Below are positions 1 through 12,164 of a stretch of DNA of 24,409 nt, piece by piece (the stretch's first letter is position 1; every line of letters begins with the position of its first letter). The stretch lies in the IMG/VR virus record IMGVR_UViG_3300022701_000340, positions 1 through 24,409 of that record, one strand, 5' to 3'. This stretch comes from a virus. The notes beneath the pieces were generated by a model that had not been told where the DNA came from, did no database searches, and was given only the letters and a program-made list of their open reading frames with translations. A program made the position numbers and the translations under genes.

Positions 1-1688
1 CCAAATCCACCACCAGCACCACCTGCTGGACCTGACACTTGTGCACCACCACCTGTCATTTTATTAATTAATTTGTCTACTCCAATACTACCCATTTTAC
101 CTATAATACCACCAACAAATTTAATCGCTGGCATTGCAAGTAAGAACATACCAACATATTTCCCAATAATAGCACCCATATCTTTAGTATCACCATGAAT
201 ACCTTGTAACCAATCAGTAAATGAATCCATCCAAGGTCGAATGGTATTGGTAAGTAAGTCGTTAATACCTCTTAATAATGGAAGACCAACAGCTTTTATT
301 TCTTTCATAAAAATATTCCATTGTTCATCAAAAGTCTGAGCATCTTTTCCTCTTTGTTTTAAAGATTTTGTTTGACCTTCTAAATATTCAAGTTCTGTTT
401 TACCTAAAGTTGCAATATCTTTACGGAAACCTTTAACGTTAACAAAGAATTTACCTGTAGATTCATCCATCTGTGCCATACCTTCGATAATTTCTTTTTC
501 ATCTTTAGTATAACCAGCATTAAGCATTTGCACACGCATATCACCATATTTCTTTTGTTGTAATGCCATTTCGGTCATTTGTTCAACAGAGAAACCTAAT
601 GCTTCACCTGCCTGTTTTAACATATCACGTGCCATTGGAGAGGCAAGTTGATATTCAAAACCATCTGCTGTTTTATTCAAGGTTGCCATTCCTTTTGTAA
701 GTTCAGATATTTTCTTTTGGAATTGTGCAGGATCATTACGAGATAAGAATAACATTTCAAATGGATCACTTTTTGCAAACTCACCACCTAATACTTGTAA
801 TTGTGCTGCAAGATCAACTGCACCTTCTAAACCACGTGCTCGTTCGGCTGAATCTAATGCTGTTCCAATGTCTACTTTGAATTTTTCAGCATATGCTGCC
901 ATATCACCCATTCCTTGAACACCTAAACGGAAAGTATATGTTTGTAAAGATTTAAAGTTTGACCCAACTGCTTTTAATACTTTGGTCGCATTAACACCCA
1001 TGTTTTCAGATGTTTCTAAAATACCTTCAACAGTTTTATTAACACCAATTATATCTTTACCTAATAATTCGAATTGACCAGCAAGTTGTGCAGCTTCTTC
1101 ATTTGCAAGTCCAGTACCTTTGGCAAGGTCTGCCATTGCTTCCATTTGTTCGGCATTCATTGAAACTGTTCTACCAACCTGATCAACATATGAACTATAC
1201 ATACCAATTAATTCTTCGGTAGCCATATTTAATCTTGCAGCTTCAATAGCACTACCTTCAATTGCAGTTCTAAGATCATTAGCTTTACCTGCCGTAAATC
1301 CCATAGTAAGAGAAGTTTCTTTAAGTGCTTTATCGGCAGTCATTAAATAATCATATACGTAAGTTTTTGTTGCAGAATAAATAGAATTTGTTATTTGACC
1401 TGCTCTTTTCCAAAGACTAACAGATTCTTTTTGTTGTTTTACTTGTTGTTGAAGACTACCAACATATTTTCTATGGGTCATTAAATTTTCTGAAAGTGCT
1501 TTTTGCTCGTCTTCGGTAAGGTTACGACCCTTTTCTTTCATTGCCAATAATAGAGATAACTCGTTGGTTTGCTTCTCCATTGTTTCGAGAATACGAGTTT
1601 GAACACCCAACATTTGACGTGAGGTATTGAGGGACTGTGATTCCATATTTTGGATTTCACGTTGAATGTCTTCCTTTTTTTTAGCCAT
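1..1688 (-). CDS. Tail tape measure protein, N-terminal part (runs off the window)
   Basis: The minus strand is open from an ATG at 1688 to the window edge, giving about 562 residues without a stop. The product starts MAKKKEDIQREIQNMESQ. Its first ~110 residues are rich in Gln, Lys and Glu and look helical. A long Ala/Gly/Met-rich helical body follows, then a hydrophobic stretch at about residues 505-535 and a Gly/Ala-rich segment at the window edge. This composition, the size and the place directly after the gp26/gp51-like assembly gene fit a tape measure protein, which sets tail tube length and is later ejected. A late-promoter-like motif lies 18 bases upstream. The C-terminal part is missing, so no peptidase or lysozyme domain can be excluded. 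Tape measure is an inference from architecture and context, not from a conserved motif. Confidence 0.8.
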   Translation of the reverse strand, partial: MAKKKEDIQREIQNMESQSLNTSRQMLGVQTRILETMEKQTNELSLLLAMKEKGRNLTEDEQKALSENLMTHRKYVGSLQQQVKQQKESVSLWKRAGQITNSIYSATKTYVYDYLMTADKALKETSLTMGFTAGKANDLRTAIEGSAIEAARLNMATEELIGMYSSYVDQVGRTVSMNAEQMEAMADLAKGTGLANEEAAQLAGQFELLGKDIIGVNKTVEGILETSENMGVNATKVLKAVGSNFKSLQTYTFRLGVQGMGDMAAYAEKFKVDIGTALDSAERARGLEGAVDLAAQLQVLGGEFAKSDPFEMLFLSRNDPAQFQKKISELTKGMATLNKTADGFEYQLASPMARDMLKQAGEALGFSVEQMTEMALQQKKYGDMRVQMLNAGYTKDEKEIIEGMAQMDESTGKFFVNVKGFRKDIATLGKTELEYLEGQTKSLKQRGKDAQTFDEQWNIFMKEIKAVGLPLLRGINDLLTNTIRPWMDSFTDWLQGIHGDTKDMGAIIGKYVGMFLLAMPAIKFVGGIIGKMGSIGVDKLINKMTGGGAQVSGPAGGAGGGF

Positions 1689-1706
1689 TTATATCTCTTA
1701 ATTTAA

Positions 1707-1723: not shown

Positions 1724-1912
1724 TTATCTTCTTCTTACCCCTGAAACTCTATTGACATGTGTTTGTGATTTTTCTTGTTCTTTTTTCAGTTCATCAGCCT
1801 CTTCTTTCATGAGATTTAAGAAGTATCTACGTTTGAAAACAGGTATTCTTTCAATATAATCGGACGCAAATCTACCGTGTTTTGTTAACAGATAAATTTC
1901 TTCCATTACCAT
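1724..1912 (-). CDS. Small protein, or C-terminal extension of the upstream assembly chaperone by -1 frameshift
   Basis: This frame of 62 codons (start MVMEEIYLLTKHGRF, basic end VSGVRRR) lies between the gp26/gp51-like gene and the tape measure gene. It is predicted to be helical and charged, with a Lys/Glu-rich stretch at residues 36-50. The frame is open upstream of its ATG, without a stop, back to the T9 run at 1943-1951 inside the end of the preceding gene. A -1 slip there would fuse 72 residues (starting PKSLAGDYKK) to residue 325 of that protein. This is the usual layout of tail assembly chaperones G and G-T just before a tape measure gene. No clear ribosome binding site precedes the ATG, so translation only as a fusion is possible. 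Independent translation cannot be excluded. Confidence 0.7.
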   Translation of the reverse strand: MVMEEIYLLTKHGRFASDYIERIPVFKRRYFLNLMKEEADELKKEQEKSQTHVNRVSGVRRR

Positions 1913-1929
1913 TTTTTTGTAATCACCCG

Positions 1930-2916
1930 CTAAAGACTTGGGAAAAAAAAATCAATACCCATTGCTATTGGTGCTCTAAACATATTACCTTCTGGTGATA
2001 TAAATTCGTATGTGAGATCAACTCCGGGTGTGACATCATCCATTTTCTTTCTAACCGCAAGAGCATCACCTGCTGGCATTGCTTCAACAAAACGATTAAT
2101 ATAATCTGGATTTTTGTTACCATCGATTTCAACAATTGCTGCTTTTAATCTTGATGTAGAAGTATCGGCAAACAATGTTTGATATGTTTGTTGTCTTAAT
2201 TCTGCTTGATCAACAATTTGACGAACTTCTTTATCACCCAATAATCTAAATTTTACAATTTTCTTTCTCATTGGAAGTTTAACAACAAATAAACCATTTT
2301 CATCTGGATGTTCTGTAACTTTTTTATATTCTATTTTTGTTAAATCAATTTCTGCTTTAAATGGTTTTCCAGTATTTGGGTTTGTGACTTGAACTTCATA
2401 TTTTGCACCATATGATGATGCACGAAGAAATATAAGAATTGCATTTTTATCACCAGTTAACATATTTTCAATGTCCAATCCTTTTGTTTTAATCTTTCTT
2501 TTAAGAATTTCATCGAGTACTGTACCATTTTCAAGTAATGCTGGTGTTGTAAGAACATCTTCATCTTTTGCAGTAAGATATTCAACAGCAACTTCTTTAA
2601 CTGGATAAAAATAACCTTCCGATGGAAGTTTTATAATATCACTATCAACAATTAAATCTGGATCAGTTTCCTTCATTTGTTGTTGCATAAAATCTTCTGG
2701 ATTAAAATTTTGTTTTGGTGGACTATCTATAGGTTTTGCTTCCTCATTTGGATTTGGTAATGGCACATTTTCTTTATTTTGAATTTGTTGATGATGCGCC
2801 ATTGCTTCATCTTGATTAGTCATAGGGTTCTTCCCTGTTTTAGCATAAAAATCATCAAAACTCTTTTTAAGTGCTACCTTATTAATTTCTTCATCAGATA
2901 ATTGTTGTTTTGCCAT
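1930..2916 (-). CDS. gp26/gp51-like baseplate hub / tail assembly protein (T4 base plate family)
   Basis: The 328-residue protein has a polar, Gln/Asn/Pro-rich N-terminal ~85 residues and then a conserved-looking core: LPSEGYFYP, a segment containing LTAKDEDVLTTPALLENGT, and GDKNAILIFLRASSYGAKYE, each within about residues 98-175. These features resemble the T4 base plate family that includes gp26 and gp51, small baseplate hub or hub-assembly proteins. By position before the tape measure gene it may act as a tail assembly chaperone. The gene ends in codons GAT TTT TTT TTC, a slippery T-run followed three codons later by TAG. A late-promoter-like element lies 38 bases upstream. The family assignment is from memory of the motifs; the chaperone role is inference. 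Confidence 0.75.
   Translation of the reverse strand: MAKQQLSDEEINKVALKKSFDDFYAKTGKNPMTNQDEAMAHHQQIQNKENVPLPNPNEEAKPIDSPPKQNFNPEDFMQQQMKETDPDLIVDSDIIKLPSEGYFYPVKEVAVEYLTAKDEDVLTTPALLENGTVLDEILKRKIKTKGLDIENMLTGDKNAILIFLRASSYGAKYEVQVTNPNTGKPFKAEIDLTKIEYKKVTEHPDENGLFVVKLPMRKKIVKFRLLGDKEVRQIVDQAELRQQTYQTLFADTSTSRLKAAIVEIDGNKNPDYINRFVEAMPAGDALAVRKKMDDVTPGVDLTYEFISPEGNMFRAPIAMGIDFFFPSL
1942..1951 (-). promoter_or_regulatory. Candidate -1 ribosomal frameshift site (T-run, heptamer T TTT TTC)
   Basis: On the minus strand nine T are followed by C. In the zero frame they read GAT TTT TTT TTC, so the last seven bases form T TTT TTC, a canonical X XXY YYZ slippery heptamer. After a -1 slip the frame stays open through CCC AAG TCT TTA and on into the 62-codon frame, giving a predicted 397-residue product. 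Only a weak CCC/GGG pairing is visible downstream, so a stimulatory structure is not evident. A homopolymer length error in the assembly is the main alternative. Confidence 0.6.
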
Positions 2917-11795: not shown

Positions 11796-12164
11796 ATGGA
11801 AAAAAAACTATTTGAATATGAACCACTAAGAAGAAATAGGTTTGTAGTAACTTTTACAGATGGGATTGAGGTTGAACCTTGGAGAATTAATAAAGTAAGA
11901 AGAAGATTTAATGATATAGGGAGTGTTGCAAGAAAATGGTATTCATTTGATATTGTTGAAACTGTTGCACATGAAAGTTTTTTAAACAAAGATTTAAATC
12001 GTCTTGAAGTTTCTTTTAAGATAGAATATCTCGACCCAACAAACGTTGTGGTTAAAACAGATGTTGGAAAAGGTAGAATACAATCACAAACCATGAGTGA
12101 TCTTAATATGGAAGATGATGGTCTTATTTATTCAACAATTGAAGTTTTAGTTGACAACGACTAA
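11796..12164 (+). CDS. Tail-tube-like protein, possible baseplate tube initiator
   Basis: The 122-residue protein aligns with the window's own tail tube protein over the N-terminus: FEYEPLRRNRFVVTF here against FDYEPKRENRFFAEF there, followed in both by a short IEVEPW / IEVWKV segment and a basic F-K/R-R region. It is shorter than the 162-residue tube protein and lacks its central insert. Tube-like folds with different ends are known in T4 gp48 and gp54, which start the tube on the baseplate. Position after the gp5-like hub gene supports such a role. The paralogy is visible; the exact role is inferred. Confidence 0.6.
   Translation: MEKKLFEYEPLRRNRFVVTFTDGIEVEPWRINKVRRRFNDIGSVARKWYSFDIVETVAHESFLNKDLNRLEVSFKIEYLDPTNVVVKTDVGKGRIQSQTMSDLNMEDDGLIYSTIEVLVDND

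Follow-up and report, generated by a model that had tools for sequence, protein, structure and literature searches.

A predicted −1 recoding site in a T4 gp26/gp51-family tail gene, with slip sites of both directions among its relatives

Tail assembly chaperones (TACs) made by frameshifting are classic, and phage T4 is the named exception to the conserved tail frameshift (PMC5009743). Shifts of +1 are also described, on proline codons in Listeria phage PSA and in the tail locus of HSTV-2 (PMC5009743). Vladimirov, Gautam and Davidson identified the TAC genes of T4-like phages in 2022, under a title that speaks of a mechanism other than frameshifting; in the passages that cite this study, one paper describes a short gene and a fused long gene (PMC10885494) and another credits it with poly-T −1 signals in T4-like TAC-N genes (PMC12846349). 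In the literature searched, where the 2022 study was represented by its title and by citing text, we found no description of frameshifting in proteins of PF12322, the family of T4 gp26 and gp51. Here we analyze a gene of this family in a 24,409-nucleotide stretch of viral DNA (IMG/VR record IMGVR_UViG_3300022701_000340, hereafter the window), in which a −1 shift on a run of nine Ts (T9) is predicted to extend the short product, TAC-N, into a longer form, TAC-NC.

The zero-frame gene matches the Pfam profile PF12322 with an E-value of 1.6e-10 (41.5 bits against a curated cut-off of 24.5), which bears out the gp26/gp51-like identity that an earlier note on this DNA had assigned, and matches PHROG 150 ‘baseplate hub’ at E 6.7e-13. 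Its final codons, ATT GAT TTT TTT TTC CCA AGT CTT TAG, encode the C-terminus ...GIDFFFPSL of a 328-residue protein and contain, as the same note had pointed out, the −1 heptamer T TTT TTC in phase at 1948-1942 of the minus strand, three sense codons before the TAG. The −1 frame is open for 75 codons, from 1951 to a stop at 1726-1724, and continues into the 62-codon frame noticed earlier; the predicted fused product comprises 325 + 72 = 397 residues, with the junction peptide ..GIDFFFPKSLAGDYK. Because a −1 frame TGA (1954-1952) lies just upstream of the overlap, any shift is confined to about 20 nucleotides, and within these the T-run is the sole slippery sequence.

The probability of 75 open codons arising by chance, given the local composition, is approximately 0.003, and homology is the stronger evidence for the extension in sequence terms. 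The −1 frame extension of the window is homologous to a module that lies out of frame in approximately 195 other loci. A profile built from the +1-frame extensions of other phages matches the −1 frame of an independent contig, L001, whose extension protein is the same as that of the window, at E 6.7e-12; a later extension profile that included L001 matches the window at E 5.5e-16. The extension of a more divergent relative, L125, also hits PHROG 634 ‘baseplate hub assembly catalyst’ at E 0.006.

These two genomes are the closest relatives of the window. L001 differs from it by 11 mismatches in 5,916 nucleotides and keeps the T9; three of the differences fall in the extension and all are synonymous third-position changes in the −1 frame (0/0/3 by codon position). 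L125, whose protein is about 50% identical to that of the window, likewise keeps the T9, and shares with the window a block of 25 identical nucleotides, GATTTTTTTTTCCCAAGTCTTTAGC, spanning the slip site and the stop, while the rest of the gene is about 63% identical in DNA. Differences between the L125 and window extensions distribute as 22/16/44 over the three codon positions of the −1 frame. These patterns indicate that selection acts on the −1 frame of the extension. With an open −1 frame, a conserved slip site and extension, selection on that frame and a position before a probable tape measure gene, the sequence makes it very likely that the locus encodes a TAC-N/TAC-NC pair, akin to lambda G/GT, by −1 recoding on the T-run. 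Comparative evidence thereby supports the earlier proposal of a −1 shift by which a gp26/gp51-family protein gains a C-terminal extension, directly ahead of the tape measure gene.

We infer from this arrangement that the shift occurs, that it does so at a low rate, that the ribosome is the machine that slips, and that both products act as chaperones. Most ribosomes would make the short TAC-N, the gp26-like protein of 328 residues that ends at the TAG at 1932-1930. A minority would slip back by one base on U UUU UUC, within the U9, and produce TAC-NC, longer by a C-terminal module of 72 residues that is mostly helical. If the two forms act as lambda gpG and gpGT do (PMC5009743), the tape measure protein would be coated by many copies of TAC-N, and a few copies of TAC-NC would recruit tail tube subunits.

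To place this site in its family we surveyed IMG/VR and annotated phages and collected approximately 210 loci with a PF12322-type gene. The module follows a conserved pattern, roughly ‘..Y+..+++.+F.L.Y....F...VYNMPV..R+FY...L.....E’, and overlaps the end of the gene out of frame, in +1 in 182 loci and in −1 in 18 rows. We reduced the 18 rows to 14 loci by dropping L001, which is nearly identical to the window, and L062, L101 and L106, which are not frameshift cases; the 14 are the window, L125, L007, L220-L225 and the jumbo phages Atu_ph07, Vibrio 2.275, CM1, SP27 and RaK2. All 14 contain T TTT TTY in phase within the two-frame overlap. The conservation that the earlier note had proposed to test in homologues, of the T-run, its phase and the open −1 frame, holds in L001 and L125, but most of the family carries the extension in +1 (the 182 loci). 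In 176 of these 182 the overlap offers UUU with U or C as the next base, or CUU with U as the next base, and the remaining six end in AAT CCC AGT, which would allow a slip on CCC A. CCC A, not a phenylalanine codon, is the likely slip site in L207, L210-L212, L216 and L217, where the module is in +1. The commonest +1 sites are TTT TTT TGG, TTC TTT TGG and TTT TTT TAC, with TTT CGT CC in a large gut and rumen group, and the module of the 182 loci is nearly always preceded by a +1-prone site (UUU-UGG, UUU-UAC, UUU-CGU or CUU-UGG). Microcystis phage Mel-JY01 has TTT TTT TGG, and Flavobacterium phage immuto has TTT CTT TGG. Re-pairing in +1 works in nearly all of the site variants. A −2 shift, considered for the same class, was rejected, as TTC TTT TGG, TTT CTT TGG and TTC TTT CGT bar re-pairing two bases back.

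The nucleotide composition of the sites differs with direction. In +1 loci the base before TTT TTT T is C in 42, G in 28, A in 10 and T in none, whereas 75% of NNY codons elsewhere in these genes end in T (raw Fisher p ~1e-25, a value that, like all P-values of the survey, ignores relatedness). A safer figure comes from representatives, one per cluster at 62% identity: among these, T precedes TTT TTT in 2 of 59, versus 14 of 14 in the −1 class. At the +1 sites, 166 of 167 second phenylalanine codons are TTT, compared with 81% TTT in gene bodies, and in-phase TTT TTY occurs just seven times in 196 gene bodies, once with a preceding T. Judged by these counts, slip sites are selected for the direction of the shift. 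The +1 extensions also evolve as coding sequence in their own frame, with differences in 18 pairs falling 121/82/319 by codon position. Across the wide family alignment, no stretch was conserved enough for a contig scan. In L112 (Alishewanella phage Slicko01, 1699-2650) there is a weak module match in the +1 frame (E 0.2), and its overlap contains no convincing slip site.

With nine Ts, slippage by RNA polymerase has to be weighed against slippage by the ribosome. The polymerase would add one U on the T9, and some mRNAs would then encode the 397-residue protein by ordinary translation; indeed, a transcript with ten Ts yields exactly the TAC-NC fusion, and slippage on runs of T or A makes extended products elsewhere, for example from Shigella mxiE (PMC5009743). 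Preservation of the run in L001 and L125 agrees with this explanation as well. The remaining −1 members point the other way, with only six Ts in CAT TTT TTC (SP27 and Atu_ph07) and TAT TTT TTC (Vibrio 2.275), as do the +1 members, whose runs are of at most seven Ts and are often interrupted (TTC TTT TGG, TTT CTT TGG, TTC TTT CGT), and several 8-T runs elsewhere on the minus strand of the window show no comparable arrangement. Because the other members have six or seven Ts, often interrupted, polymerase slippage is less likely across the family, and for the window we regard it as improbable.

Two further explanations do without any slip. The 62-residue open reading frame (ORF) might be translated alone, by re-initiation or coupling, with the T-run incidental: its ATG at 1912 has GGGTGA about 10 nucleotides upstream, and L101 and L106 seem to encode the module in a free-standing ORF that has its own ATG. 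However, starting at that ATG would cost the conserved module its first ten residues, and 34 of 101 +1 loci offer no in-frame ATG, GTG or TTG ahead of the module. Both points make separate translation unlikely; it would also leave unexplained the 25-nucleotide identical block and the way in which the type of slip site goes with the frame. The 62-residue ORF is probably not a separate gene, and we give the two-gene account very little weight. Long homopolymers are error-prone, and seven or ten Ts would put the extension in frame, as in a truly fused gene that had suffered a sequencing error or an inactivating frameshift mutation. The same T9 stands in the independently assembled L001 and in the divergent L125, and therefore is not a sequencing artifact; the module is moreover out of frame in the roughly 195 relatives. 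A base-calling error at the T9 is excluded for practical purposes, and error and mutation together have a negligible chance of accounting for the locus.

Several observations weigh against −1 ribosomal recoding in the window. The closest relatives beyond L001 and L125 shift in the other direction, +1, and therefore the −1 direction of this lineage has two divergent genomes and L001 behind it. Nine Ts are long enough for RNA polymerase to slip. The tape measure assignment of the ORF at 1..1690 depends on a weak match, and the fold match to HK97 described below is not significant by E-value (1.2). Downstream of the slip site we detected no stimulatory RNA structure beyond that of shuffled sequences (z of −0.4 and −0.8). 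Such a structure is usual for −1 programmed ribosomal frameshifting, and is not required.

To examine how the direction of the shift has changed, we built a maximum-likelihood tree of 77 zero-frame proteins with a midpoint root. The −1 state requires three changes, forced by well-supported branches, and the window with L125 (support 100/100) is nested within a +1 clade (99/96); on this topology the pair is a nested switch to −1. Because the root is a midpoint, the ancestral shift state is one that we infer. Other members encode the module differently. In T4 the short and long forms come from two separate genes, gp26 and gp51, and an alignment to the module is obtained for the C-terminus of gp51 (probability 76, single-template E 2.3e-5) but not for gp26 (0.3). 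L062 (2501-4212) contains a short gp26-like copy ending at a +1-type site, TTC TTT TGG, directly followed by a diverged copy with the module in frame, and this tandem pair resembles an early stage of the T4 arrangement. The in-frame full copy in L062 and the gp51 alignment in T4 together mean that relatives do make the fused form as a genuine product. A third encoding is seen in L101 (3277-3549) and L106 (downstream of 3205), where the module seems to form an ORF by itself, with an ATG beside the TAC-N stop. We lean slightly towards a history in which the gp26/gp51 family was ancestrally a single frameshifted gene, the direction changed at least three times with matching sites while opposite-direction sites were avoided, and the two genes of T4 later replaced recoding by duplication, with L062 as an early tandem form. 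In that case the T4 exception would be a derived state: most members of the gp26/gp51 family would recode, and the two T4 genes would go back to a single recoded one. The family would also provide a natural experiment, in which several changes of direction in one gene allow the rules for +1 and −1 slip sites to be tested in one protein context.

Structural prediction of TAC-N gave an AlphaFold2 model with a predicted local distance difference test (pLDDT) score of 91. Foldseek searches against viral models matched it to the baseplate hub subunit of SP-15 (E 3.7e-18) and to gp26 of Aeromonas phage 25 (E 1.4e-5). Among PDB entries the most probable match was the HK97 tail assembly chaperone gp13 in entry 2ob9, with a probability of 0.51 (0.25 for the other chain), a target template-modeling score of 0.49 and an E-value of 1.2; this probability is well above those of the remaining, unrelated PDB matches, none of which is significant. 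The model agrees with a TAC fold for TAC-N and is not proof of it. A sequence search for solved relatives returned none. The natural fusion in L062 gave a model of moderate confidence (pLDDT 70), in which the module itself is formed of helices predicted with high confidence.

The features of the locus are collected in Table 1. Next after it comes a long ORF that is low in proline and rich in glycine, alanine and lysine, and that weakly matches a protein of Flavobacterium phage immuto annotated as its tape measure protein (BLASTP E 5e-5 in a single comparison). A long ORF occupies the same position in 130 of the 142 loci with enough DNA, and the window also contains tail tube and sheath genes. 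The best reading of the locus is as the TAC locus of a T4-related contractile-tailed phage. Elsewhere in the window, a 122-residue ORF at 11796-12164 of the plus strand is similar (41% over 39 residues) to the N-terminal region of the tail tube protein at 14197-13709, and may be a truncated or specialized tube paralogue.

Table 1. Coordinates of the predicted recoding locus and its neighbor in the window.
Feature	Position	Strand	Remarks
TAC-N, zero-frame gene of the T4 gp26/gp51 family	1930..2916	−	328 amino acids; stop TAG 1932-1930
T9 slippery run (A9 on the plus strand)	1943..1951	−	same T9 in L001 and divergent L125
In-phase −1 slippery heptamer T TTT TTC	1942..1948	−	3 sense codons between heptamer and stop
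−1 frame TGA directly 5’ of the T-run	1952..1954	−	sets 5’ limit of the shift window (frame translation)
−1 frame extension (TAC-C module)	1724..1951	−	72 codons after the shift; stop 1726-1724
62-residue ATG ORF within the extension	1724..1912	−	ATG inside conserved module, after PKSLAGDYKK
Probable tape measure gene, next after the TAC locus	1..1690	−	start 1690; cut by window end

The survey also bears on annotation. Extensions are missing or listed as small hypothetical proteins in many phages, including the coliphage SP27/121Q group, RaK2, immuto, SP-15 and Microcystis phage Mel-JY01. In published phages they are annotated as separate small hypothetical proteins at L116:2583-2792, L114:2571-2774, L005:3357-3467 and L004:3231-3467, and some of these start inside the module. 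The extension of L058 (2972-3244) weakly matches PF20546 (DUF6760), at an E-value of 2e-4 that is below the cut-off. In contractile injection systems PF20546 occurs close to gp26-like genes; if this neighborhood holds, the clusters of these systems may recode too. Among 392 genomes searched, one contained PF20546, in a broken form and with no PF12322 neighbor seen. No plasmids matched the TAC-N of SP-15.

Among described systems, T4 has the same protein family: gp26 and gp51 belong to PF12322, and the extension has its counterpart at the C-terminus of gp51. In T4 each form has a gene to itself, whereas the window has one gene and a predicted frameshift. The earlier suggestion that such a shift would link the gp26/gp51 family to the general TACs concerns a link that is not new; going by the title and the citing text it was published in 2022, apparently with the stress on separate genes. 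New here, as far as sequence comparison can tell, is widespread frameshifting in both directions within the family, part of which may already stand in Vladimirov et al. 2022.

Known programmed +1 sites include CUU U in prfB and UUU CGU C in influenza PA-X. The +1 relatives of the window use look-alikes of the sites in known +1 systems (CTT TGG, TTT CGT and CCC A, and most often TTT TGG); prfB, PA-X, PSA and HSTV-2 involve other genes, and the window itself is −1. Closer in direction is the TAC of Pakpunavirus Adele and the Vandenendeviridae, for which PMC12846349 describes a −1 shift at a poly-T GTTTTT before the tape measure gene, with a conserved extension. That paper treats T4-like TAC-N genes as a separate known case. 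With lambda gpG/gpGT and HK97 gp13 there is no detectable sequence similarity, and the PF12322 protein is two to three times larger; what the window would share with them is the arrangement itself, a short chaperone with a rare −1 extension directly before the tape measure gene.
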